A DNA stretch of 64,000 bases, from assembly GCA_003054695.1 (NCBI GenBank), contig QAZA01000003.1, forward strand, positions 62,001 through 126,000. The letters run 5' to 3'. Shown here piece after piece: positions 10,146 to 44,291 of the stretch. The position numbers were made by a program, and so were the translations under genes. Every line of letters begins with the position of its first letter. The stretch's first letter is position 1. The DNA comes from Verrucomicrobia bacterium LW23 (GTDB lineage: Bacteria > Verrucomicrobiota > Verrucomicrobiia > Methylacidiphilales > UBA1321). The notes under the pieces are model-generated. The model saw only the letters and a program-made list of their open reading frames with translations. It had not been told where the DNA came from and made no database searches.

Positions 10146-10173
10146 CGCATTGCCCTTCTTCAAGAATCTTAAC

Positions 10174-11310
10174 ATGCAACGCTTTATGCAAATGACTATG
10201 GCCTGCCTGGGCGTTATTTCCCTTGCAGGATGCAGTCCCGGCTCCCGCTCCTCCACGCCTCGATACGATGCGGTCGCTGTACAGCGCGGAAACATTATCC
10301 AGCTGGTAACGGCTACTGGTTCGCTGAGCGCCGTGGTAAGCGTGGATGTGGGAAGCCAGATTTCCGGCACCATCAAAGCCCTGAACGTGGACTTCAACTC
10401 CACTGTCAAGAAAGGCGATATTGTGGCAGAACTGGACTCGGCGCTCTACAAGGCGTCCGTCCATCAGGCGCAGGGTGAACTTGCCAGCGCAAAAGCTGCA
10501 CGCGAGCTGAGCCGACAAACAATGGAGCGCAAGAAGGTTCTCGTCCCCCAACGGGCCGCAACCCAGGCGGACCTGGACAAAGCTGTCGCGGAACTCGCTC
10601 AGGCAGAAGCCCTTGTAATGATCAAGGAAGGCGTGCTGGAAAAAGCGCAAACGGATCTCGGCTACTGCAGGATAGTCGCCCCAGTGGACGGCATTGTAAT
10701 CTCGCGAAAAGTGGACACGGGCCAGACGCTGGCGGCCGCGATGACCACGCCGGTGCTGTTTACGATTGCGCAGGACATTACCAAAATGCACATCAGCGCA
10801 ACCATTTCTGAGGCTGATATCGGGATGGTGGCGGAGGGCCAAAGCGCCGAATTTTCCGTTGATGCATTTCCCGGGGAAGTCTTTTCCGGCAAGGTGGTTC
10901 AGGTTCGTAAGGCTCCATCAACAACCAATAACGTGGTAACTTACCAGACTATTATTGATGTGGATAATCCGAATCAAAAGCTATTCCCCGGCATGACGGC
11001 AGAGGTCTCACTTGTGGTGGCCAGCCGGGAAAACGTGTTGGTGATTCCAAACTCCGCGCTGCGCTTTACGCCGCCATACGGCAGCCAACTGACAAGGCTG
11101 GATCTGCCCAGACCGGTGCGCAGTCAACGCCGCGTGTACGTGCTGGAGCCCGATGAAAAGACATTGAGGCCGGTCATCATCAATTGCGGCATCACAAACG
11201 GAGTGGTAACAGAGGTACTCACCGGGCTTGCCGAAAAGGACCGGGTCGTTGTCGCCGCCGCAGTGGAGAAGCTAAAGCCCGCCGGCTTTGTCCCTCCCGC
11301 ACCGCAATGA
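10174..11310 (+). CDS. Periplasmic adaptor lipoprotein of a tripartite efflux system (HlyD/MacA type)
   Basis: The ATG at 10174 is chosen because it gives a short lipoprotein signal ending in VISLAGC (Cys20); a TTG at 10150 would add eight residues. The 378-residue protein has the membrane fusion protein order: beta-barrel/lipoyl half (VGSQISGTIKALNVDFNSTVKKGDIVAELD), a helical hairpin (about 95-160), the second lipoyl half (DLGYCRIVAPVDGIVISRKVDTGQTLAA), the beta-barrel and a membrane-proximal domain ending LKPAGFVPPAPQ. It would link the inner-membrane ABC permease to the TolC-like channel. The stop overlaps the ATPase start by four bases. Confidence 0.9.
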   Translation: MQRFMQMTMACLGVISLAGCSPGSRSSTPRYDAVAVQRGNIIQLVTATGSLSAVVSVDVGSQISGTIKALNVDFNSTVKKGDIVAELDSALYKASVHQAQGELASAKAARELSRQTMERKKVLVPQRAATQADLDKAVAELAQAEALVMIKEGVLEKAQTDLGYCRIVAPVDGIVISRKVDTGQTLAAAMTTPVLFTIAQDITKMHISATISEADIGMVAEGQSAEFSVDAFPGEVFSGKVVQVRKAPSTTNNVVTYQTIIDVDNPNQKLFPGMTAEVSLVVASRENVLVIPNSALRFTPPYGSQLTRLDLPRPVRSQRRVYVLEPDEKTLRPVIINCGITNGVVTEVLTGLAEKDRVVVAAAVEKLKPAGFVPPAPQ

Positions 11311-17713: not shown

Positions 17714-18736
17714 ATGGCAAATCAGCGCGAAATCGCCAAAGCACTCGGACTGGCCCAGGCCACCGTGTCCCTTGCCATGCGGGGGCATCCCAGCATACCG
17801 GCCAAAACACAGGAGCTGGTGTGGGAGACTGCAAAGAAGCTGGGGTACCGCCCCAACCCCATGGTGGCCGCGCTGATGGAGAGCATCCGCTCGGGCCGCC
17901 CCGTGAAGGATCAGGGCTGCCTTGCCATCCTTTACGATAAGGACTCGCGCGATCCCTTTCTGCAAAAGCTGAGCGCCTACCGTATCCAGCTGGAGGGCAT
18001 GCAAAATCAGGCTATTCTGCGCGGCTACCGGTCCGAGTGCTTTTACCTGCATAACCCCGGAGTGACGGCAGAGGCGCTGGACCGCCAGTTGTACTCGCGC
18101 GGCATCGCGGGCGTTATCCTGGCGGCACCCAAGTCGGTGGATTCACCCGCGGTACGCATGCAATGGGATCGGTATGCCGCCTCCACCATCAGCTATACGT
18201 GGCAGGTGCCCGCCGTGGACCGCGTTTCCTCCCATCACCGCCACAACGTGGACCTCGCGTTCCAGAAAGTGCTGGAGCGCGGTTACCTGCGCATTGGCAT
18301 GTGCCTGCCCGCGGCGGCCTGCAATGGAGTGGACTCCAACTGGCTGGCCGGCTACCTGGTCTGCGAGTCACATCTGCCCGCCAGGCGCCGCATCCCGCTC
18401 TTCAAAGGCACCATCCATGACACGCCGACGGAAAAATTCCGCGCCTGGCACGAGCGCTGGAAACCCGACGTCATCCTCTCCCTCATGGGCGAGGAAACAC
18501 ATTGGCTGAAGCAGATCGGCATCCCCCGCGAAGCCATGCGCATTGTCTGCCTCAACCTCCAACCCGGCTCCCCCCTCAGCGGCATCGTCGAGAACAACTA
18601 CGACGTCGGCGCTGCCGCCACCGACATCGTGGTGCAAAAGCTCAACCATAACGAGCGCGGCCTGCCCGCCCACCCCCGCCTGCTGCTGATTGACGGCAGC
18701 TGGAAGGAGGGAAATTCTCTGCCGGCGGCGCACTGA
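17714..18736 (+). CDS. LacI-family transcriptional regulator
   Basis: The 340-residue protein has the standard LacI architecture: an N-terminal helix-turn-helix (residues 3-24, REIAKALGLAQATVSLAM), the hinge region KKLGYRPNPMV (about 41-51) and a periplasmic-binding-protein-like effector domain. The effector domain is divergent from sugar repressors (few of the usual sugar-contact motifs), so the inducer is unknown. It is divergently transcribed from the beta-helix gene. Palindromes upstream of that gene and of the following pseudopilin operon suggest it controls both and itself. A weak TAAGGA ribosome site lies about 14 nt before the ATG. Confidence 0.92.
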   Translation: MANQREIAKALGLAQATVSLAMRGHPSIPAKTQELVWETAKKLGYRPNPMVAALMESIRSGRPVKDQGCLAILYDKDSRDPFLQKLSAYRIQLEGMQNQAILRGYRSECFYLHNPGVTAEALDRQLYSRGIAGVILAAPKSVDSPAVRMQWDRYAASTISYTWQVPAVDRVSSHHRHNVDLAFQKVLERGYLRIGMCLPAAACNGVDSNWLAGYLVCESHLPARRRIPLFKGTIHDTPTEKFRAWHERWKPDVILSLMGEETHWLKQIGIPREAMRIVCLNLQPGSPLSGIVENNYDVGAAATDIVVQKLNHNERGLPAHPRLLLIDGSWKEGNSLPAAH

Positions 18737-19060
18737 TTCTACTATGCTTATCAAGCCACGAATGCGTGAATACCGCCGCAGTCTACGCAAAAAGACAGCT
18801 TAACCTGGGTATCGGCGAACCCACACGCTGCCAGGGGCAGCGCGGAAAGCCTCCGGTCTGGAATTCGTCGAAGCGATCGATCGGAAGATTGTTTCACCGA
18901 TGTTGAGCTTCGTCGACCTCCTGCCGGGGTCGTCCGATTTCTGCCGCAGGCGCCATCCAGCCAGATTGTTCCCGTTACTAATCGTGATTAGCGAGGGGGA
19001 CGTTGTCAAAGTCGCCATTGCATCCTACGCTTGCTTTACCAACAAGAAAGGACGAACGTT
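18737..19060. other. Leader region of the pseudopilin cassette
   Basis: No gene is supported. Near its right end are the operator candidate (18977-18992) and a plausible sigma-70-like promoter: TTGTCA at 19003-19008 and TACGCT at 19026-19031, 17 bp apart. An AAAGGA ribosome site (about 19047-19052) precedes the ATG at 19061. The left 200 bp show no recognisable terminator or repeat. Confidence 0.4.
18977..18992. promoter_or_regulatory. Palindromic operator candidate, site 2
   Basis: ACTAATCGTGATTAGC contains the inverted repeat CTAATC/GATTAG with a 2-bp centre and matches the reverse complement of site 1 (17630-17645) at 15 of 16 positions. It lies 68 bp before the start codon of cassette protein D and about 10 bp upstream of the best -35 candidate. 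It would place the pseudopilin operon under the LacI-type regulator encoded just upstream. Binding just above the -35 could repress or activate; the sequence does not decide. Confidence 0.68.
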
Positions 19061-19795
19061 ATGAATCGCTGGAGACTTCAGTTTTCAATGTCATCGCAGG
19101 TGCGCCCGGGATTGCAGGCGCGGCGCGGCAGTCGGGATGAGGCGGCGTTTACGCTGGTGGAGATGATGACGGTGGTCAGCATCACGTTCGTGCTGATGGC
19201 TTTAACGGGGCCGGCATTGCGGTCGTTGATCGGGGGAAACTCGGTAAACCGGGCAGTGGCGGATTTCTCCTCCACGCTGACGATGGCGCGCACCTACGCC
19301 ATGGCTAACAATACATATGTGCGGGTGGTGATGGCAAAGTCCACCTATGGGCCGTACGGCGCCACGCGGCTGGTTATCCTGCCAATCTACTCCGCGGACG
19401 GATCGCTGGATCAGGACAGCAGCACGGATATGCGGGACGCGAGCAAATGGCCCGCACTTTCGCAGGCCGTGGTGCTGGATCAGATGGAGCTGAGCGATAC
19501 GATCAACGCCATCGCGCCCGACACTCAGAACGATGCGTTGCCGGGGGACACCGCCTCGGATATCGCCGACTTTATCCGGCGCGCTCCGGGCCTGGGGAGT
19601 GCCGAGCTCCCCTTCAACGCATGCGTTCAGTTTCAACCGTCCGGAGAGGCGCGTGTGTCGAAGGGCATTCCGGCCCGCTACATCCGCATTGCCGTGGATG
19701 GCAGCGGCGCGAAGGCCGGGCGTAATCCGTTTATCCTGCGCGTCTCCGGAGCCAGCGGCAGCGTGGATGTGCTCCGCGTAGGGGAGCAGATGTGA
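19061..19795 (+). CDS. Verru_Chthon cassette protein D, pseudopilin-like
   Basis: The ATG at 19061 follows an AAAGGA ribosome site; an upstream in-frame TTG at 19031 is less likely. The 244-residue protein has a type IV prepilin N-terminus: a basic leader, then FTLVEMMTVVSITFVLMALTGPAL, where a prepilin peptidase would cut before the Phe and the Glu at +5 is present. The globular part follows (SSTLTMARTYAMANNTYVRVVM..., later ARYIRIAVDGSGAKAGRNPFILRVSG). Its first position in a D-B-C-A gene order matches the four-gene cassette defined in Verrucomicrobium and Chthoniobacter. Function is presumed to be a minor pseudopilin of a secretion or surface-assembly machine; no ATPase or secretin is in the window. 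Confidence 0.85.
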   Translation: MNRWRLQFSMSSQVRPGLQARRGSRDEAAFTLVEMMTVVSITFVLMALTGPALRSLIGGNSVNRAVADFSSTLTMARTYAMANNTYVRVVMAKSTYGPYGATRLVILPIYSADGSLDQDSSTDMRDASKWPALSQAVVLDQMELSDTINAIAPDTQNDALPGDTASDIADFIRRAPGLGSAELPFNACVQFQPSGEARVSKGIPARYIRIAVDGSGAKAGRNPFILRVSGASGSVDVLRVGEQM

Positions 19796-20379
19796 CGCTG
19801 CACGTACGCAGTCGAGGCTCGGCGGCTTTCTCGCTGGTGGAAGTTGCTCTGGCTCTTGGGATTGTGGCGTTTGTTCTGCTTGGCGTGATGGCTCTGCTGC
19901 CACTTGGGGTCAAAAGCAACCAGATATCGAGGGACGAAGCGCGCGCGGCGGGGATCTTGACCGCTCTGGAGGCGGATCTGCGCAATACGCACCCCGCTCT
20001 GGGGGCGGGACCGGCGGGTGCCGGCAAGTCGCTCCAGTTTGGCATGCCGCTGCCCTACACGGTCTCTTCCTCCACTGGCCAGCTCATTTTCAATCCCTCG
20101 CTTGTCAAAAATGACATGACGGGCGGCTACAGCGTCCTTCTGGACGAGACCGAGCTGCCAATGCCGGCAACCGCGCCGGCAGGAGCGCCGGGCCGCTTTC
20201 AGGCCACCATTGTCTACACACGCACGCCGGCGGATATGGATGCCGACACGCTCGCTCCGATTGAAGCGCGCCTCATCGTAAACTGGCCGTCGATCACCAC
20301 CTCCGATATCTCGGATCTCACCAACACAGCAAAAGTCTCCGGCTACGTCGAAGCCTGCGTCACTTTTCCCGCGCCATGA
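19792..20379 (+). CDS. Verru_Chthon cassette protein B, pseudopilin-like
   Basis: The gene starts with GTG and overlaps the D gene stop by four bases (GTGA). The 195-residue protein has a short leader and a prepilin segment, FSLVEVALALGIVAFVLLGVMALLP, with Glu at +5, like GspI/PilV-type minor pseudopilins. The segment LPLGVKSNQISRDEARAAGILTALEADLRNTHP directly after the helix is typical of the B family. The C-terminal part (RFQATIVYTRTP..., LIVNWPSI) is strand-rich. It is translationally coupled to its neighbours and should be processed and assembled with C, D and A. Confidence 0.85.
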   Translation: MTLHVRSRGSAAFSLVEVALALGIVAFVLLGVMALLPLGVKSNQISRDEARAAGILTALEADLRNTHPALGAGPAGAGKSLQFGMPLPYTVSSSTGQLIFNPSLVKNDMTGGYSVLLDETELPMPATAPAGAPGRFQATIVYTRTPADMDADTLAPIEARLIVNWPSITTSDISDLTNTAKVSGYVEACVTFPAP

Positions 20380-21368
20380 TATTCCGCAGCCCCCATTTCC
20401 ACTTGCAGCGCCGCACCATCTTTTGCCGGGGCTTTACCCTGGTGGAGCTGATTACGGCCATGGCGGTGCTGGCTGTGCTGGGGCTGATTATTGCGCAGCT
20501 TACCACCGCCACGGTGCAGATCTCCGATCTTAGCAACCGTGCGATCAACGCCACCGGGCAGGCCCGGCTGGTGCTGGATCGTATCGGTGCGGACCTGGCA
20601 ACGACCGTGCGGCGGCGCGATGTCGATTTTGTCGCCCGTAATCCAGCCGTAGGAGAGCCCGATGTGGAGAAGCGTAATGCCCTGTGGTTTGTGGCGTCCA
20701 CGCCGGCGGCGGATCTGCCTCCCGCAGACAACCGCGGCATCTCGGTTGTTGCGTATCAGGTTGCGCCCCACCCCAATAACGCCAACCGGCTATGCCTGGT
20801 GCGCGCGGGGTTGTCCGTGCCGTGGAATCGCCCGGCCGCGTGGAGCGATACCGACTTTATGGGGATAAAGGCGGATGGCCTGCCCGTGCGGCTCAGCTCC
20901 GCGGACACCTCTTTCCCTCGCGACCTGGTGCCGGCGGCACCGAACTTTGACGTGCTGGCGCCTGGCGTTATCCGAATGGTAGTGGGCTTCCAGCTCTACC
21001 CGGACAATCTCCCCGTGGATCTCGCCGACGGCACGCACTTTGACAATGCGCAAGGCCAGATCGTCTACAGCCCGCCTATACGCTCCGGCACCGGGGCCGT
21101 CGCGTATGTCGATACGGACCGTATAAGCAGCATCGTGGTCGGTGTCGTCGCCTTGGACCTGGAAAGCCTGCGTCTGCTGAACGCCGCACAGGTTATGGCT
21201 CTGGCTCAGCACTTTGGAGGGGTACCCATGAACTCCGTGCCCGTGGCCGCGTGGCGAGCCGCCTCTGACAACGCCGTGTTGAGCGGCGTGCCCCCGCGGG
21301 CGGCGCAGTCGGTCCGCGTTTTCCAACGCTTTTATCCCATGACTCCCAACGGAAGCAAACGCCTATGA
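20376..21368 (+). CDS. Verru_Chthon cassette protein C, pseudopilin-like
   Basis: The ATG overlaps the B gene stop (ATGA). The 330-residue protein has a 23-residue basic leader followed by FTLVELITAMAVLAVLGLIIAQLTT, a canonical prepilin helix with Glu at +5. The next segment, GQARLVLDRIGADLATTVRRRDVDF, is reminiscent of GspJ/PilW-type pseudopilins. The protein includes a repeated claim-to-family stretch FVASTPAADLP and a later GVVALDLESLRLL. It ends FQRFYPMTPNGSKRL. The gene overlaps cassette A by four bases, so the four genes form one tightly coupled operon. Confidence 0.85.
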   Translation: MIFRSPHFHLQRRTIFCRGFTLVELITAMAVLAVLGLIIAQLTTATVQISDLSNRAINATGQARLVLDRIGADLATTVRRRDVDFVARNPAVGEPDVEKRNALWFVASTPAADLPPADNRGISVVAYQVAPHPNNANRLCLVRAGLSVPWNRPAAWSDTDFMGIKADGLPVRLSSADTSFPRDLVPAAPNFDVLAPGVIRMVVGFQLYPDNLPVDLADGTHFDNAQGQIVYSPPIRSGTGAVAYVDTDRISSIVVGVVALDLESLRLLNAAQVMALAQHFGGVPMNSVPVAAWRAASDNAVLSGVPPRAAQSVRVFQRFYPMTPNGSKRL

Positions 21369-24300
21369 AACTGCCGTGCCTTGAACCAATTGGTCTTGCT
21401 CTTCCCCAAGAGCGGCGGTCCTCGTTGCGCAATCGCCGCGGAATGGCGCTGGTCATCACACTGGCTGGGCTGGCGCTCGTCACCGTGCTGATCCTGACAT
21501 TCTTTTCCTCGGCGCAGCTCAATCGCAAGATCGCGCTCAGCGGCTCTAATCTCGTTAAAGTTGACCTCCTTGCGCGATCCGCCATGGATATTGTGGTGGG
21601 CGAGGTGCGGGAAGAACTGCGCACAGGCTCTACAGTATCCGACGGCGGCAACCCGTCGTATCCGCTGATCTATAAGCCGCGAAATGTTGACGATTCGCTT
21701 CTTCGCAAAAACGGTGTGGCCGGCGAAGACGACCTCGCGCGCGTGCTGCTCCGCAAGGTCTCCTCGGACGGCGCGCCGCTGAACGGCAACGCGGGCGGTC
21801 GCATTCTGGCCTCCTCCGTATCCACTGCGGAGAAGAGCCTGAACGGGCGAATCTGGACCGCTTCCAAATGGTACACGGGGTCGAGCAGCCCCGCCCTGGG
21901 CTCCGCCGAGCTGCCCGACTGGGTGCTGGTGACGCGGCGCAACGGTATTGCCGTAAATCCGGGGGTGGAGACGGTACGCGATCCCGCGAACGCCAACTTT
22001 GTCATCGGCCGCTTTGCCTACGCAGTGTATGACATCGGGGGCCTTCTGGACGCGAATACCGCCGGCTTTCCCTCAACGCGTTCGTCGGGTTGCGGCTACA
22101 AGACAACGACCGCGTATGCGGACCTGACGGCGCTTGGTCTGAGTCAGGGCGCGTGCGACAGCTTTGCAGCATGGCGCAACCAGCGGGCGAACGGCACACT
22201 CCTCGACGCAGCGTCGTTTCAGGAATGGGCGACGGGCATGGATCGCAATCTCGGTTCCGCCTCGCCTGCTGCTACGCCCGATGCGATGATGCTGAATACC
22301 GTGAGTGATGGTTATCGCACCGCGCCTTTCGGCTCGAATGTGGTGCTGTCGCGCCGCGATCTGCTGAATCATCCGCATCTTAAGGGCGGGGGAACCGCGT
22401 CGTACTTCACCCACTTTTCCCGCTCCATGAGCGGGCCGGTCTCTGCGGCGGCACCGTTGAATGTTACTCTGTCCAATCCCGTGCTGGCGGACGTCCGCTC
22501 TACCGCGGCGGGGACAATCTCGCACTACCGCGACGACGGCACGATGGAAACCTACAGCGTAGCCGCGGGCACGCCACTGCTGCGCAGCCGCTTCTCCCTC
22601 GCCCGCCTTGCCTGGCTGACCCCGGAAGGCCCGAGCGCGGAGCTCCCCCTCAGCCACCCACAGTACCGGGCCGGTGGAACAGCCGCGGCGGTTCAGGCAT
22701 GCTTTGGCCTCGTCTGGCGGAGCGCGGATGCCCGCTGGGAATACGTCGGCAGCGAAGGAGGTGCCGTAAAATCGACGATCAAGACGCTGGCTACCGTGGC
22801 GGGCGAAAGGCGGGAACCGAATTTCTTCGAGCTGCTGCGTGCCGGCATTGCCGAGGGATCCCTGGGTCAGAAGACCGGAGCGCCCAATCCCATGAGCGGT
22901 GACGCCGGAGCCAGCAAGCCGGACGTCCAGCCCACTCTCGAATCGTCTAAAGACCTGCAGATCATGAAGATAGGCGCCAATATCATCGACTGCGCGGATA
23001 CCGATAACTATCCCACCATCCTGTACTTCGAGCCCGTCGCCGGCCTCGGCATCGAGGTGGCCGGCATCGAGAATTTGCCCTACTTCCACGGAGTCGACAC
23101 ATCTGCACTGAATGAGGCCGTTACCGCCACCAAAACGCTGAACAAGCTGGACTACATGTGGACGCCGGTGCTCTTCAATCCCCACAGCACCGCGTCTGGC
23201 GCCACCACATCGCCACCGGTGGCGGTCGAGGTATCGCTGACGAAAGCGATGATGACGCGCATTCAGCTCCTCGGTATGACGGTGGGCAGCACGGTGGATC
23301 TGGAGATCGATCTCTCCGGCAAACGCTTTTCCATAGACAGCACGGCCTTTCGTGATCGCCCCAACGTGGCACGAGGGTCCGGGCAGCCGCAGTCGCTGGC
23401 CACTCTGGTGCCCTACTGCACGGGAGAAGGTGATGTGCTCACATTCCGCATGTTCTCCTACCCTGCGGACAAACCGGGAGTATTGCCCGCGACCTACACC
23501 AGCAACCCGCAGTTGCGCGTGCAACTTGCCGATGTGCACCTGGAGCTGCGCTATACCACCCCGGGCGGAAAGATTAAGGCGTATGCTTCCCTGGGCAGCT
23601 ATGACGACGGCAAGGGCGGCATCGCTATGGGCACAATGTACCAGGATTGCAATACCATGGCGGGTGGCGCCGCAAATATGAACCAGAAGGTGATCAGCCG
23701 CGCGTCCTATAGTACTATACTGTGGGATCCCCGCACAATTCGCCTCGGGCCCAGCCAGGCATGGACCCGGTCGTCGGTCTCGTCTGTTCCGCTGCCGGAT
23801 AGCGACTCGGTGCGCAATCGCGATCCCTTTGGCTGGGCCGCCAACGCGGCCAATATCCACTGGGGCAAATGGCCGGAAGGTGGCAAGACGGGCGGCTACA
23901 CCAGCGCCCCAGTGGCGGACTACCTTAACATGCGCGACCCGGACGGCGTCACCCGCCCCGCCGACGGCTGGCTCGGCGGCCCGACAACCAACATTTACCG
24001 TAACCTGGCCGATCAGACGCGCCGCCCCGTTATCCTGCAGCGGCCCTATCGCTCCGTGGCCGAGCTGGGCTACGTCTCCCGGGATAATCCGTGGAAGACA
24101 CTGAGCTTTTTCGATAACACCAGCGCGGACGGTGCGCTGCTGGATCTCTTCTCCGTTTCTGACACAGCGCCCATTGTCGCCGGACGCGTGCAGCCCGGCG
24201 CATCCCCGCAACGCGTGGCGGAAGCGCTCTTTCGCGGCGCAGGCCAGGATTCCGCCGGCACCGCGCCTCTCGCGCAACCCGCCCAAGTTGCGAACGCCTG

Positions 24301-24646
24301 GCACTCCAGCGCTCTCGACGCCGCCGGCGGCGCGCTGCCGAGTATGCCTGCCACCGCGGCGGACATCCCCGCCTTCCTGATGTCGCTAAACGGCAACGCC
24401 GCGATGGGTTTGGACGCGATCAAATATCGCCGCGAAGCCGTCGCGCGCTCCCTGGCTGGCACCAGCCAGTTCCGCACCTGGAATCTCCTGATCGACGTCG
24501 TGGCGCAAACCGGCCGCTACCCTGCGTCGGCTACCGGCCTGGCAGACTTTATCGTGGAAGGTGAGAAACGCTATTGGCTCTCGATCGCCATCGACCGCTA
24601 CACCGGCAAAATCCTGGACCGCCACATCGAACCCGTTACGGAGTAG
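21365..24646 (+). CDS. Verru_Chthon cassette protein A
   Basis: The 1093-residue protein has a basic N-terminus and one membrane helix, GMALVITLAGLALVTVLILTFF, without a prepilin cut site (a PilX/GspK-like anchor). A very large extracytoplasmic domain follows. Landmarks shared with the second A-type gene in this window are VVGRFAY/VIGRFAYAVYD, REPNFFELLRAGIAEGSLGQ, RSVAELGYVSRDNPWK, and the C-terminal LLIDVVAQTGRYPASA...VEGEKRYWLSIAIDRYTGK. It is the last gene of the operon. Its size and position suggest it is the tip or cargo-recognition partner of the B/C/D pseudopilins; this is inferred from GspK-like proteins, not shown. Confidence 0.85.
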   Translation: MKLPCLEPIGLALPQERRSSLRNRRGMALVITLAGLALVTVLILTFFSSAQLNRKIALSGSNLVKVDLLARSAMDIVVGEVREELRTGSTVSDGGNPSYPLIYKPRNVDDSLLRKNGVAGEDDLARVLLRKVSSDGAPLNGNAGGRILASSVSTAEKSLNGRIWTASKWYTGSSSPALGSAELPDWVLVTRRNGIAVNPGVETVRDPANANFVIGRFAYAVYDIGGLLDANTAGFPSTRSSGCGYKTTTAYADLTALGLSQGACDSFAAWRNQRANGTLLDAASFQEWATGMDRNLGSASPAATPDAMMLNTVSDGYRTAPFGSNVVLSRRDLLNHPHLKGGGTASYFTHFSRSMSGPVSAAAPLNVTLSNPVLADVRSTAAGTISHYRDDGTMETYSVAAGTPLLRSRFSLARLAWLTPEGPSAELPLSHPQYRAGGTAAAVQACFGLVWRSADARWEYVGSEGGAVKSTIKTLATVAGERREPNFFELLRAGIAEGSLGQKTGAPNPMSGDAGASKPDVQPTLESSKDLQIMKIGANIIDCADTDNYPTILYFEPVAGLGIEVAGIENLPYFHGVDTSALNEAVTATKTLNKLDYMWTPVLFNPHSTASGATTSPPVAVEVSLTKAMMTRIQLLGMTVGSTVDLEIDLSGKRFSIDSTAFRDRPNVARGSGQPQSLATLVPYCTGEGDVLTFRMFSYPADKPGVLPATYTSNPQLRVQLADVHLELRYTTPGGKIKAYASLGSYDDGKGGIAMGTMYQDCNTMAGGAANMNQKVISRASYSTILWDPRTIRLGPSQAWTRSSVSSVPLPDSDSVRNRDPFGWAANAANIHWGKWPEGGKTGGYTSAPVADYLNMRDPDGVTRPADGWLGGPTTNIYRNLADQTRRPVILQRPYRSVAELGYVSRDNPWKTLSFFDNTSADGALLDLFSVSDTAPIVAGRVQPGASPQRVAEALFRGAGQDSAGTAPLAQPAQVANAWHSSALDAAGGALPSMPATAADIPAFLMSLNGNAAMGLDAIKYRREAVARSLAGTSQFRTWNLLIDVVAQTGRYPASATGLADFIVEGEKRYWLSIAIDRYTGKILDRHIEPVTE

Positions 24647-38633: not shown

Positions 38634-39500
38634 TTACAAATACGAAGGAGCGCGCAGTTCCTTTGCGATGCGGTCCAGCTCCTTCTGGAATTTGGCGGGG
38701 ATGACGAGGTGGCCGGTGGGGGGGATGGGGTCGTACTCGATGCGGTAGGTGGCGGTGCCGTCGTCGAGTTGTATGGGGTAGCCGGTGGCGGTGTCGATCC
38801 AGGCCTGATACTCGGCTTCGATGCCCAGGGCGGCGCGCATGTCGCGGGAGAAGTGGAGGCAGGGGCGGCCGTTGAGGGTGGTGGCCTCTTCCCGGTCGCG
38901 CTGGGGGCGAATCCACGAGATGCTGCTTTCGCGCAGGGAGGCCAGTTCGGGCAGGAGGGGGCCGCTGTCGCCGCGGGGCACTTTAATGGAGCCATCCGCG
39001 GCTTCCTCCACCAGCAGGCCGCTGTCGTCGTGCCACACTTCGGTGGAGGCGCCTGTTTGCCAGGCGATGCGGTAGAGCGTTTTGCCGCCCAGGCGGCGGA
39101 TGGTGAGTGTCTGGATGACGGGCCGGCGCGTGGGGCCGGGCTTGCCGCCTTTGCGCGTCACTTCTTCCACGCGCGCCGCTTCCATCTTGTCCGTTACGGT
39201 AATGGTGGCACTATAATTGCCTTGCGGTAGCCTGGGGCGGACGAACTTGCGTTGCCCGGCGCCACCGCCCGGGCCTGCCCCCTCCCCCGCCTCCCGCTGG
39301 CCCTCGATAGCCGTCGCCTGCTGGGCGTGGGCGGCGGTGGTACACAGGGCAAGGGCAAGGGACAGCGCGCAGAAGAGGGACAGCGCAGTGGCCGCAATGG
39401 CAACAGCGGGTCGGCTGCCCGAGGAGCGGGGTCGCCCCCGTCCGGCCCATGGCCCGCATAACAATAGCTTTTGCACATCCATCGCACCCATCGCGTTCAT
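38634..39500 (-). CDS. Secreted protein of unknown function, coupled to the orphan cassette A gene
   Basis: The ATG at 39500 shares one base with the stop codon of the upstream cassette-A-like gene (TGATG), so translation is coupled; a GTG one codon earlier is possible. The 288-residue protein has a long N-region and a clear signal core, ATALSLFCALSLALALCTTAAHA, with cleavage expected after AHA. The mature part has a Gly-rich stretch and then strand-rich sequence (YSATITVTDKMEAARVEEVTRKGG, IQTLTIRRLGGKTLYRIAWQTG, LHFSRDMRAALGIEAEYQAWIDTATGYPIQLDDG), resembling lipoprotein-carrier-like or outer-membrane-associated beta folds. No family is claimed. Its tie to an A-type protein suggests a shared function. 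Confidence 0.65.
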   Translation of the reverse strand: MNAMGAMDVQKLLLCGPWAGRGRPRSSGSRPAVAIAATALSLFCALSLALALCTTAAHAQQATAIEGQREAGEGAGPGGGAGQRKFVRPRLPQGNYSATITVTDKMEAARVEEVTRKGGKPGPTRRPVIQTLTIRRLGGKTLYRIAWQTGASTEVWHDDSGLLVEEAADGSIKVPRGDSGPLLPELASLRESSISWIRPQRDREEATTLNGRPCLHFSRDMRAALGIEAEYQAWIDTATGYPIQLDDGTATYRIEYDPIPPTGHLVIPAKFQKELDRIAKELRAPSYL

Positions 39501-42500
39501 CACAATACAGGCTCCATCTGCAAATGCACGACTTTTCCGGTCGCGCGGTCGATCGCCACGTGGATCCAGTAGCGGCGCTCGCCTTCCACCATAAAGTGTT
39601 GCAGCGACGTAGCGTTACGCCGCAGCCGGCCGGGCTGCGCCACCACGTCGATGAGCAGGTTCCACGTGCGATTCTGGTTAAGCTGGCTGAGCGCGCGTAT
39701 GGGGGCTTCGGCCCAGGCCTTGTTCTTTTTGAAGGGCTTTTCCGTGGCGGAGGCGCCATCGAGCGCGTTGTTGATCGGCTCGGCCAGGCTTAGCGCCATC
39801 TCCGCGTTGTTGCCAAACACGGGCACCGTCCCGCTGGCCAGCTGGGTGCGGATCGCCGTCGCGATCTTGTCCGCCTCGGCGGCGGTGATGAGCTGGAGAG
39901 GCGCGTCGACCGGGCCGGTGCTGGTAGTCGGCGGAATGCGCGCTTTGAGCGCCCCGGAGAGGATCGCCTTGAGCTCCGCCACGCCGGCGCGGTTGAGGTT
40001 GATGCGGCCTGCCGTTACGCTCGGCTCCTCGCGCAGGCAAAAGAGGTCGAGCAGTCCGGCATCGGCGCTGTGTTGCGTCCAGAAGTCGAGGTTCTTGCCG
40101 GGGAGATCGCGGTACACATAGCCCAGCTCCGCCACGGACTCAAACGGGCGGTTGAGGACCACGGGCCGGCGCCGCACGCGGCCGGTGCGATGGGCCGTCT
40201 GGTCGAAGTGATAGAGGTAGTTGCCGTCGCCCGTGGAGGACGCGCTGCCGGGCTCCATGCGGATACCATCGCCGGGACGCACCACGCCGTCGGGATCGGA
40301 GTAATACATCGCGTTGCGGTCGGGCGTTGCCACCACGTCCTTGCGGTTCACCATCAGGCCGCCGGTAAGCACGCTGGTGTAGCCGCCCACGGCCAGGGGC
40401 ATGGGGCCGGGCAGGTAGCGGAAGGTCGTCGTGGTGTTGTGCGGGTAGTCGCCGCCAAAGGTTTCTTCGGTCATGGACTCATTGGCGCCGCTCATCCAGA
40501 TGGTGCGCTCCACCGGCCAGTAGCTGCCCTGCTCGGCGCGGCGCTTGCTCAGGGAGAAGCGGTCGGTGCGTGGATCGGGCGCGTGGCCGGCGGGGCGCGA
40601 CTGAAAGTCGAGCGAGCCGTCGAACAGGTCGGTGTGGCCTGCGTCCCAGTCCGTAACGCCCAGGCCGTGCGTGCCGCCCCAGCCCACAAACGTGCGCGCC
40701 AGTTGGCTGTAGGGCCTCCAGCGGGTGCCGTCCCAGCACTCTACGGCCATGGTAATCAGCGGGTTGGGGGTTATGGAGACTTCCAGGAAGCCGCTGCGCC
40801 ACTGGGTTTGGGTGTAGTTGCGGTAGTAGGGCGCCTCGCCGGCAAAAATGCCTGTGTAGTTGAACTCCACGTAGTTGGTGGCGGTGGGCGGGACGTCCCA
40901 CGTGGAGAAAAAGCGCTGGTAGGTGACATCCGTGGCCGGCTTGATGTTGATGGGCGCGGTTTCCATGCCGGAGACGCCTGTGAGCAGGTCGTTGCGGCGG
41001 ATGACGCGGGGGCGGATGAAGAACCACGAGCTTTCCGCGCCGGGGTCGTCCGCAAAGTAGATATCGCGATAGGTGGGCTGGCCGGGCAGCAGCGGGTTGA
41101 TGTCGTAGTTGATGTTGGGGGTGTCGCCGCGAGTGGCGGGCGTGCTTTGGCGCTGAATGCGCGAGAAGCAGTTGCCGTGCGCGCGAACCCGGAACCGCGC
41201 AGGCCGCGGACCGCCGGTATCCACCCATTGCTGGTGTGGATTCCACAGCTCCACCAGCCACCAGAACTTGAAGTTCTGCTCGTTGGGATCGTTGGGGATG
41301 CTGGTCAGCGGGTCCTGGTAGTTGAGCTTGTGCAGGCGGCTGATGTACGGGAGATTCTCGACGCCGGAGATCAGGTCCTCCAGCTCCTGGCGCTCCGTGC
41401 GGGCGCCGACGCCTGTGGGCGCGGCGTCAATAAGCGTGGGGTAACTGTCTCGGTCGTACTGATCCACAATATTGGCGCCGATTTGCAGCAAATGGCGCGC
41501 GCGGTTGCCGCTGAACTTCTCGAAGTTAACCGCCAGCTTGAAGTAGGTGCCGGGGATGGATGCCACCGGCGTGGAGTACATGGCGGGCGGCGGCCCCTCG
41601 CCGGGGTGCTGGCCCAGAGAGCCGTTGAGGATGCCGGCGTTGAGCATCTCAAAAAAGTTGGGCTCGCGGCCCTCCGCCGCTACCTGGGCCAGCGTCTTGA
41701 TGGCCAGCACGGAGCTGGTGCTGTCAAACTGCAGGTAGCTCCACTTGCCGGTGGACGCATTCCACTGCAGGCCAAAACACTGGCGTATCGCCTCCTCCCT
41801 CTGCGCCGGGGTGACGGACGGTGCGAAGGCCGAGGCCGCCGGGCCGTCCCAGCCCAGCCACGCCAGTTTGGCCAGGGAGAAACGGGCCGTTACGGCGCGG
41901 TCGCCCGTCACTACATCGTAGGGCTCGAATGTGCCGTCATCGGCATAGCGTCGCACGGCGGAGTGCGGGCCCGCAAAGCGCACAAACGGGATGAAGCGGT
42001 TGACGGACGCGTCCGCGTTCGCATCGCCCCGGTAATCCGTGGACGTTACGCCGGCGCCCGCCTGGAAGTTGGGGCTGGTGGAGGAGATAAGCGTCGGCCC
42101 CCATGAAGGATCGGTCGTCGAGACGCTGCTATGCGTAAAGCTGGAGGCCAGCGTGGAGGGCAGCGACTCCGTGCCGAACACCGGGGTGCGCCCGCTGCCG
42201 GCCAGTCCTTCGATGAGATCGCGCCGGCTGACAAAGCGGTTCTGGGTCGATTCGGCGGTGAGGAAGCCCCGCTCATCTCCGCGGCTGAGGTTGGTGTAGA
42301 AGGTATCCGGCGTGGCGATAGCGGCGGCACCGTCGCGCCACGTGGCCAGGCGGGTGATCTCCGTTGTGCCCAGGCCCAGGGTGGTCAGGTCCGCGTACGC
42401 CTGCCAGGTTTTGAGGGGCGCGCGGAGATCGCCGGGCGTGTTTCGGTAACCGGCAATGTTGGCGTCCAGGCGGCCGGAGACATCGTACACCGTGTAGGCA

Positions 42501-43153
42501 AAGCGGCCCACCACGGCCTCCGGCGAGTACGGGTTGGCGCCCTCCGCCACGGAGGGCGTTTCCACGCCCGACCGGGTGGTATACACCCATGTGGGCAGCG
42601 TGGCGGAGCCCAGGCGCGGGCCGCCGGTGCCATACCAGCGGGCCTCGCTTATCGACCGCCCATTGGCGCTGGGGGTGCTGATGGAGACTGCGGAACCGAT
42701 GGTTTGCCGCCCCAGCCCCGTGCCAGTCGTTGCGGGATCCGCCGAGATTTTGATGATGGTGGTGGCCCCGATAGCGTTGGTGCCCGCCACGCCGGAGGGC
42801 AGCGGCAGGCTGTTCTCCGCCACCAGGGGTCGCATGTAAATGGCGCCGGAGGTCGGGTCGGTCGCCACGTCGGAACCCTCGTGCATCTCGCGGCGCAGTT
42901 GCCCGATAATGTAGTCCCCGGACGAACGAGCCATCTGATCCGCCCGCCCCTGGTTGGCACTACTGAAGGAGATTTGCCGGTTGAGCGTGGCGCGACTGAA
43001 GAAGGCGAGGATCACCACCGTAAGCAGGGCGACAACGGCCAGCGTCATCAGCAACGCAAAAGCGCGCCCGCGGCTGCGATGAAGTCGCGCAGGCAGGTGC
43101 GCATGCGGATGCGAGGCGTGCGGCACAGCGAAGAAATGGGGTAGCATTTGCAT
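39500..43153 (-). CDS. Verru_Chthon cassette protein A homologue, stand-alone
   Basis: An ATG at 43153 (MQMLPHFFAVPH) is preferred over a TTG at 43255 that would add 34 residues. The 1217-residue protein has a basic, His-rich N-terminus and one membrane helix, LLMTLAVVALLTVVILAFF, followed by a large outer domain. It shares ordered blocks with the A protein of the complete cassette (21365-24646): VVGRFAYTVYDVSGRLDANIA, REPNFFEMLNAGILNGSLGQ, FESVAELGYVYRDLPGKNLD and LLIDVVAQPGRLRRNAT...VEGERRYWIHVAIDR. No B, C or D gene is adjacent. It may use pseudopilins made elsewhere, for example those at 19061-21368. Confidence 0.8.
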   Translation of the reverse strand: MQMLPHFFAVPHASHPHAHLPARLHRSRGRAFALLMTLAVVALLTVVILAFFSRATLNRQISFSSANQGRADQMARSSGDYIIGQLRREMHEGSDVATDPTSGAIYMRPLVAENSLPLPSGVAGTNAIGATTIIKISADPATTGTGLGRQTIGSAVSISTPSANGRSISEARWYGTGGPRLGSATLPTWVYTTRSGVETPSVAEGANPYSPEAVVGRFAYTVYDVSGRLDANIAGYRNTPGDLRAPLKTWQAYADLTTLGLGTTEITRLATWRDGAAAIATPDTFYTNLSRGDERGFLTAESTQNRFVSRRDLIEGLAGSGRTPVFGTESLPSTLASSFTHSSVSTTDPSWGPTLISSTSPNFQAGAGVTSTDYRGDANADASVNRFIPFVRFAGPHSAVRRYADDGTFEPYDVVTGDRAVTARFSLAKLAWLGWDGPAASAFAPSVTPAQREEAIRQCFGLQWNASTGKWSYLQFDSTSSVLAIKTLAQVAAEGREPNFFEMLNAGILNGSLGQHPGEGPPPAMYSTPVASIPGTYFKLAVNFEKFSGNRARHLLQIGANIVDQYDRDSYPTLIDAAPTGVGARTERQELEDLISGVENLPYISRLHKLNYQDPLTSIPNDPNEQNFKFWWLVELWNPHQQWVDTGGPRPARFRVRAHGNCFSRIQRQSTPATRGDTPNINYDINPLLPGQPTYRDIYFADDPGAESSWFFIRPRVIRRNDLLTGVSGMETAPINIKPATDVTYQRFFSTWDVPPTATNYVEFNYTGIFAGEAPYYRNYTQTQWRSGFLEVSITPNPLITMAVECWDGTRWRPYSQLARTFVGWGGTHGLGVTDWDAGHTDLFDGSLDFQSRPAGHAPDPRTDRFSLSKRRAEQGSYWPVERTIWMSGANESMTEETFGGDYPHNTTTTFRYLPGPMPLAVGGYTSVLTGGLMVNRKDVVATPDRNAMYYSDPDGVVRPGDGIRMEPGSASSTGDGNYLYHFDQTAHRTGRVRRRPVVLNRPFESVAELGYVYRDLPGKNLDFWTQHSADAGLLDLFCLREEPSVTAGRINLNRAGVAELKAILSGALKARIPPTTSTGPVDAPLQLITAAEADKIATAIRTQLASGTVPVFGNNAEMALSLAEPINNALDGASATEKPFKKNKAWAEAPIRALSQLNQNRTWNLLIDVVAQPGRLRRNATSLQHFMVEGERRYWIHVAIDRATGKVVHLQMEPVL

Positions 43154-43556: not shown

Positions 43557-44291
43557 ATGAATTCTGCGGACTTTACACCCATCGATTCCAGCGTGCCCTA
43601 CCTCTCTGTAGTCATGCCGGTATATAATGAAGCTGCCACGGTACACGTGATTATTGGCCTTGTACTGAAGCAGACGATGGTGAAGGAGCTGATCATTGTC
43701 AACGATTGCTCTACTGACAATACGTATGAAGTATTGAAGGGAATCGCCGCCAATGAGAGCAGGATACGCCTTTACACCCACGACGTAAACCAGGGCAAGG
43801 GCGCGGCGCTGCGCACCGGCATTCAGAAGGCGGAGGGCAGTGTGGTTATCATCCAGGACGCGGATCTGGAGTACGATCCCGCCGAGTACTGCAAGATCCT
43901 CGCCCCCATGCTTAGCGGCCGTGCGGACGTAGTGTATGGCTCCCGCTTCCTGGGCTCCGAGGCGCACCGTGTTCTCTACTACTGGCACTACCTGGGTAAC
44001 AACGTTATTACGCAGGTTTCCAACATGTTTTCCAATCTCAACTGTACGGATATTGAGACGTGCTATAAGGCGTTTCGCCGCGAGATTATCCAGAGCATTA
44101 CGCTGGAGGAAAACCGCTTTGGCTTTGAGCCCGAGGTTACCGCCAAAATCGCCAACTACACGCCCCGCCTTCGCATTTACGAGGTGGCGATCTCCTACTA
44201 CGGCCGCACGTACGAGGAAGGCAAGAAGATTGGCTGGCGCGACGGTTTCCGGGCGATGTACGCGATCGTGAAATACAATCTGTTCCGCTAA
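43557..44291 (+). CDS. Family 2 glycosyltransferase (DPM1/polyprenyl-phosphate type)
   Basis: The ATG at 43557 begins [12 protein letters not shown] and places the GT-A fold at its usual distance; the longer frame is not supported. The 244-residue protein shows [14 protein letters not shown], a nucleotide-sugar site [14 protein letters not shown], the metal-binding DADLEYDP motif, [18 protein letters not shown] and [17 protein letters not shown], characteristic of enzymes moving a sugar from a nucleotide onto a polyprenyl phosphate at the inner face of the membrane. It lacks its own membrane helices. Six bases separate it from the next gene, a large membrane protein that may use or flip the lipid-linked sugar. 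Confidence 0.9.

Follow-up and report, generated by a model that had tools for sequence, protein, structure and literature searches.

A predicted giant GspK-type pseudopilin and its conserved, probably secreted partner of LolA-like predicted fold in Verrucomicrobiota

The window analysed here, a stretch of 64,000 nucleotides from Verrucomicrobia bacterium LW23, carries on its reverse strand two adjoining genes, called A and E in what follows, whose positions are collected in Table 1 with those of the other features discussed. The two reading frames meet at the junction TTGTGATGAAC, where the last base of the TGA stop of A is also the first of the ATG of E (TGATG), while an alternative GTG start of E lies 3 bases upstream of this ATG. 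An earlier note on this DNA had described a pair of genes coupled by this overlap; both open reading frames and the overlap itself are confirmed, the strand can now be added, and codon scoring favours both A and E as genes. Gene starts and gene calls throughout come from a simple caller written for this analysis. On its upstream side, A has a divergent glycosyltransferase gene as neighbour (43557-44291); on the downstream side, E is followed by a gene without a Pfam match (38599-37916). The note had also held that genes B, C and D are missing at A, and indeed profile searches of the flanks detected no homologues of these pseudopilins of the Verru_Chthon cassette near it.

Table 1. Positions in the window of the A-E locus, of parts of its two proteins and of the comparison cassette
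Feature	Position	Strand	Basis
A: predicted giant GspK-type minor pseudopilin, 1217 aa	39500..43153	-	Translation; TIGR02600 N-terminal match; model compared with GspK/XcpX/XcpK chains
N-terminal pseudopilin helix of A (predicted), model residues 2-60	42878..43054	-	DSSP of model; profile match to canonical A 7E-13
Beta-sandwich region of A (predicted), model residues 567-824, an insertion relative to GspK with low confidence in parts	40586..41359	-	VIA-align rows
Conserved C-terminal block of A (SVAELGYVYRD, LLDLF, GRINLN), collinear with that of canonical cassette A	39833..40195	-	hhalign 3.5E-09
E: probable secreted partner, 288 aa from ATG 39500 (289 aa from GTG 39503)	38634..39500	-	TGATG overlap, fold model, homologues adjoining A
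E: probable Sec signal peptide, unusually long n-region, AHA|QQ	39324..39503	-	Read by eye from sequence
D-B-C-A cassette of this subfamily lacking E, for comparison	19031..24646	+	D TIGR02596, C TIGR02599 and A TIGR02600 matches

The window holds a second locus of the same A subfamily, which serves as comparison and in which D, C and A match TIGR02596 (2.8e-11), TIGR02599 (6.9e-6) and TIGR02600 (8.6e-7), respectively, all under the models' own cut-offs, whilst B has no NCBIfam match and no E lies downstream. A regulator that by eye is of the LacI type adjoins this cassette (window 17714-24646 for the whole), and regulators like it seem to adjoin several further A loci.

When considered from the point of view of sequence, A is far from the named families. 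The model of Verru_Chthon cassette protein A (TIGR02600) reaches 27.6 bits over residues 33-94 only, against a cut-off of 332.3 bits, and the NCBIfam GspK model NF037980 reaches 16.5 bits at the N-terminus only, against a cut-off of 130 bits; PDB sequence searches with the A and E profiles gave no significant match. A whole-length hhalign comparison of A with canonical cassette A likewise aligned the N-terminus only. When the 61-member A alignment was compared by segment with eight canonical A proteins, three collinear matches were obtained (7E-13, 4.3E-07 and 3.5E-09), the best off-diagonal pair reaching 0.0038. Thus, with three segments in the same order and the remaining pairs weak at best, the sequences indicate that the homology of this subfamily to canonical cassette A extends past the N-terminal helix. 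The ordered blocks that the note had quoted as shared with cassette A correspond to conserved columns in an alignment of the 11 members from the same genome, and its description of A as an orphan relative of that protein is borne out by the collinear segments beyond the helix and by the flanks in which B, C and D were not detected. Compared with the Verru_Chthon cassette as defined in the databases, the locus therefore shares the N-terminal pseudopilin segment and the three blocks of A, but lacks B, C and D (TIGR02598, TIGR02599 and TIGR02596) and has E behind A.

The presumed prepilin site points in the same direction as the fold described below. A Glu at +5 occurs in none of the 56 A rows that were scored (of 61; the row of the window's own A was read by eye), and the -1 residue of this A is, again by eye, Ala and not Gly. 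Sites resembling GF[ST]LxE are found in 75/78 B, 70/83 C and 73/76 D proteins. The absence of Glu at +5 is a known property of GspK, which A shares.

A structural model of A (1185 residues, built with 61 sequences; mean pLDDT 75.8, pTM 0.85) retrieved no PDB match under 0.001 when searched whole with Foldseek. In VIA-align, the GspK chains 9a1f_T, 5vtm_X and 3ci0_K head the list at Z 14.3, 13.7 and 12.9, followed by a next row at 5.7, and the GspK-family matches span model residues 1-1185. Since GspK chains come out on top over the whole model, A is, in its predicted fold, a giant GspK-type minor pseudopilin, enlarged about four times (1217 aa versus 318 aa for the GspK of the same genome). 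It differs from GspK in its inserted beta-sandwich region, in its coupled partner E and in its place outside a gsp operon. The inserted region, with pLDDT under 50 in parts, returned Ig-, arrestin-, C2- and RhoGDI-like rows at Z up to 5.7, a likeness that may reflect just a common arrangement of strands. Recognition of A as a protein of predicted giant GspK fold is new here; the literature searched, which leaves most subscription journals outside, contains no mention of Verru_Chthon, TIGR02596, TIGR02598, TIGR02599 or TIGR02600.

The nine E partners found in this genome form one family (pairwise phmmer within a 13-sequence set), which shows, on visual inspection, a signal peptide and, at the C-terminus, the motif AWID..T..PV. 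When the genome is searched with a profile of these nine, all of them are recovered, the remaining matches being weak (best 3.5e-4). That best weak match is a stand-alone DUF4412 gene located away from any A (L248:3665-4261, at 159 kb of contig C56), distantly like E by hhalign (9E-06); the DUF4412 model itself (PF14371) does not match any of the nine members at E up to 1. For the E of the window, Pfam matches do not go below 0.14 and NCBIfam returns none, and searches of Pfam with the nine members and of NCBIfam with 66 members gave isolated single-member matches only, none of them to the LolA models of either library. The family diverges fast, with 13-24% identity to the E core of the window, and lipobox-like motifs are rare, with 3 occurrences among 84 E proteins.

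A model of this core (207 residues of the window's E, 66 sequences; pLDDT 88.9, pTM 0.84) is more informative. Foldseek matched it to 21 chains at 1.6e-5 to 8.8e-4, among them LprG (1.6e-5), RseB (5.3e-5) and MucB (4.4e-4), as well as LolA3, LppX and ependymin-related proteins, and VIA-align returned the same kinds (RseB, LprF, LprG and others) at Z 10.5 to 9, with RseB at 9.9 and MucB at 8.8. E is therefore predicted to have the LolA/LppX/RseB half-barrel fold. Proteins with the LolA and RseB folds include carriers and peptide binders, and a fold in common does not determine what E does. It is also important to stress that E differs from the LolA, LppX, LprG and RseB proteins in lacking a sequence-family match, in being encoded behind a pseudopilin gene and in the rarity of a lipobox-like motif. 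The description of E as a secreted partner of no recognized family thus holds for Pfam and NCBIfam, but not for the predicted fold, which is a known one; what is new is a family of predicted LolA fold that has no name in the libraries searched.

The value of the pair as a unit depends on whether E keeps its place beside A in relatives, the check that the earlier note had proposed, and the answer is affirmative. In the genome of the window, E lies directly downstream of 9 of the 11 A genes of this subfamily, the exceptions being the cassette at 19-24.6 kb of the window and the gene at C2:51470. None of the 25 other A-type genes of the genome carries E, by which the possibility of E being a general cassette gene is ruled out. 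The survey of relatives covered 90 A loci, 11 from this genome and 79 from named Verrucomicrobiota (the best 80 of 126 relatives, 79 of them distinct); among the named loci, found with the A alignment, E is directly 3' of A in 51/79. Counted over the 86 loci with at least 900 bases after A, E follows A in 58 and is absent from 28. These counts rely on the E profiles derived from A1 or A3; a second-round E profile, contaminated by frame-shadow translations of A, did not enter them.

The reverse search, starting from E, gives an even closer association, with A directly upstream in 28 of the 29 loci examined; these loci partly repeat genomes of the named set and are not independent of it. Within the same family, 32 matches outside the genome of the window yielded 24 with loci, all of which were examined, and A stands directly upstream in 23 (12 genomes); a second search gave five loci from three more genomes, within the order and class, and all five have A in this position. 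In the one exceptional locus (L203/L249), the E-like gene, at L249:4079-5452 of genome G011, sits directly behind a D gene, and no A was detected within the 9.5 kb retrieved. In a sample of the phylum, E was detected in 4 of 288 genomes at 1e-6, which means that E is confined to some clades.

The arrangement of the genes is also well conserved. The median A-E spacing is -4, and 49 of 83 pairs overlap, although the choice of starts favoured small gaps. The order is D-B-C-A in most relatives, and E stays behind A even where pseudopilin genes lie on its far side, as in L146 and L179 (C-A-E-D-B) and in L182 (A-E-D-B-C); in L156 (A-E-D-C), B was not detected and E is again directly behind A. One locus has two tandem E genes behind a single A (L186:9176-10021 and 10173-11213). 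The co-conservation and coupling of A and E are thus observed directly, and their recognition as a conserved unit is new here.

The association is nevertheless not obligatory on the side of A. The presence of E differs between sister A genes in four pairs (L142/L180, L149/L165, L171/L182 and L150/L181) and, on a tree built quickly from 61 A proteins, changes at least 11 times. Since such close sisters differ, A can do its work in the absence of E, and closely related A genes can lose E or acquire it. The pairwise distances of A are correlated with those of E (rho 0.34, n 48; 0/300 permutations as high); where all five genes are present (33 loci), the A-E correlation is 0.18 versus 0.31-0.47 for A with B, C and D, a difference that comes either from saturation or from exchange. 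The distance data therefore fit with or without an exchange of partners between tips. In another clade of A genes, four loci of this genome have a second partner family at the 3' side (L094:7538-8443, L097:2587-3171, L099:2520-3206 and L098:3106-3849), without detectable sequence similarity to E, with evident signal peptides in at least two members and without a Pfam match in the three members tested. Different tips may accordingly carry different partners.

As to the missing B, C and D genes, 71 of the 90 loci could be tabulated, loci with short flanks and five with a broken or fragmentary A being dropped. Orphan A loci, without B, C or D, make up 14 of these, and E is present in 13; in the other 57, at least one of B, C and D is present, and 41 of these loci also have E (Fisher p 0.16). 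E is thus not limited to orphan A genes, and the proposal that an orphan A with its partner forms an alternative to the full cassette does not hold, given those 41 loci. The orphan state changes at least nine times on the tree of 61 A proteins mentioned above, where the A of the window falls together with L066, an orphan of the same genome, and L118, a complete cassette. These recurrent changes, together with the presence of E in both kinds of loci, mean that the orphan A-E pair is a recurrent form and not a separate system: the locus of the window is a normal A-E unit whose B, C and D are missing or located elsewhere.

The genome as a whole encodes 36 A-type genes (L065-L100), a large paralogous expansion of giant pseudopilins which, grouped by hand, comprises 17 that pass the TIGR02600 cut-off, 8 with weaker matches and the 11 of the subfamily under study. 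Beside them, an assembly that is incomplete (95.4%, 56 contigs) holds one prepilin peptidase match, five secretin matches and T2SSF matches in five genes (one each on C9, C17 and C50 and two on C45). Locus L244 encodes, by best NCBIfam match, GspD, E, F, G and J and the 318-aa GspK, all but GspG under the curated cut-offs, and locus L246 encodes PilB and PilC, whose matches are also under the cut-offs. With 36 A-type genes and a single prepilin peptidase match, the sharing of machinery is plausible, as are exchangeable tips on it; to this extent the combinatorial system imagined in the earlier note is a plausible, if unproven, one.

How might A and E act together? GspIJK complexes are capped by GspK, whose tip is contacted by a T2SS substrate, according to one study (PMC4471445), and XcpX sits on top of the XcpVWX/XcpU tip complex as described in another (PMC6211770). 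The reading that we favour, and which we consider about evenly poised between right and wrong, is that A and E form one tip unit, in which E binds the ectodomain of the enlarged GspK-type A in the periplasm. The N-terminal helix of A would anchor in the inner membrane, and A would take its place at the tip of a pseudopilus of the type II secretion or type IV pilus-like kind, with some 1100 residues of ectodomain, the inserted beta-sandwich region among them. E, translated together with A and presumably in similar amounts, would be exported by Sec to the periplasm and bind this ectodomain, where, by analogy with its predicted fold, its role might be to bind a ligand, either hydrophobic or a peptide, or to present a substrate. 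B, C and D, when missing from the locus, would come from other cassettes or from the core Gsp locus. PilY1 and the minor pilins of the type IVa pilus offer a comparison, since there, too, a non-pilin protein is exported as partner, although PilY1 is a large protein of a different fold and the pairing of A and E at a tip is a proposal. PilY1 and minor pilins constitute the priming or tip complex of that pilus, as stated in PMC7541494.

A broader version of the tip unit, offered only tentatively and on the unlikely side, is a plug-in module: one engine, with a single prepilin peptidase and one Gsp locus, would serve dozens of giant GspK tips, a large subclass of which would bear E as a LolA-fold adaptor capturing lipid, peptide or substrate. 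The tip pair would then set what is handled, and orphan A-E pairs would borrow their pseudopilins.

Among the alternatives, a rather doubtful one, though the best of them, is that E is a dedicated periplasmic chaperone or stabilizer of the giant A ectodomain that is not kept in the assembled filament. The overlapping stop and start, the fixed order of A then E, the LolA- and RseB-fold matches of E and its retention in 13 of the 14 orphan loci would all suit such a role, but its absence from 28/86 loci, close sisters included, is odd for an obligatory chaperone and argues against one. E could also be a dedicated exported cargo, released by an A-tipped pseudopilus with A as its receptor, which we hold to be improbable: E looks secreted, diverges fast and can be absent, and a tip complex is contacted by a T2SS substrate (PMC4471445). 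On the other hand, E is predicted to fold like periplasmic carriers and binders, and it is nearly always one gene directly behind A, the only tandem pair being that of L186. Genes for T2SS cargo are usually scattered, and the carrier-like fold and fixed position of E thus argue against ordinary cargo. That E is an RseB/MucB-like periplasmic sensor reporting on A or on the state of the envelope is very improbable, for although RseB and MucB are among its best fold matches, RseB has a second domain for which the 207-aa core is too short (the matched chains have about 260-290 aa), and other LolA-fold proteins match equally well. We give equally little credence to A and E being mere neighbours by descent in a duplicating cassette, without physical contact, which would agree with the named relatives all belonging to one phylum and with the strong paralogous expansion of A-type genes, but not with the frequent A/E overlap or with E staying beside A when B, C and D are lost or lie on the other side.

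The choice of substrates by type II secretion systems is a long-standing open question, and the tip unit of A and E that we propose bears on it, since a single genome contains 36 giant GspK-like genes with a conserved accessory protein on one subclass. Verrucomicrobia are a phylum known for the breakdown of polysaccharides. One report describes 67 homologues of one PulG-like pseudopilin in another Verrucomicrobiota genome, and a pseudopilin gene over-expressed on alginate (PMC13274419). The A and E proteins would constitute a natural series with variable tips and partners on a constant engine, and the Verru_Chthon cassette, so far just a database name, gains a predicted fold and a partner.
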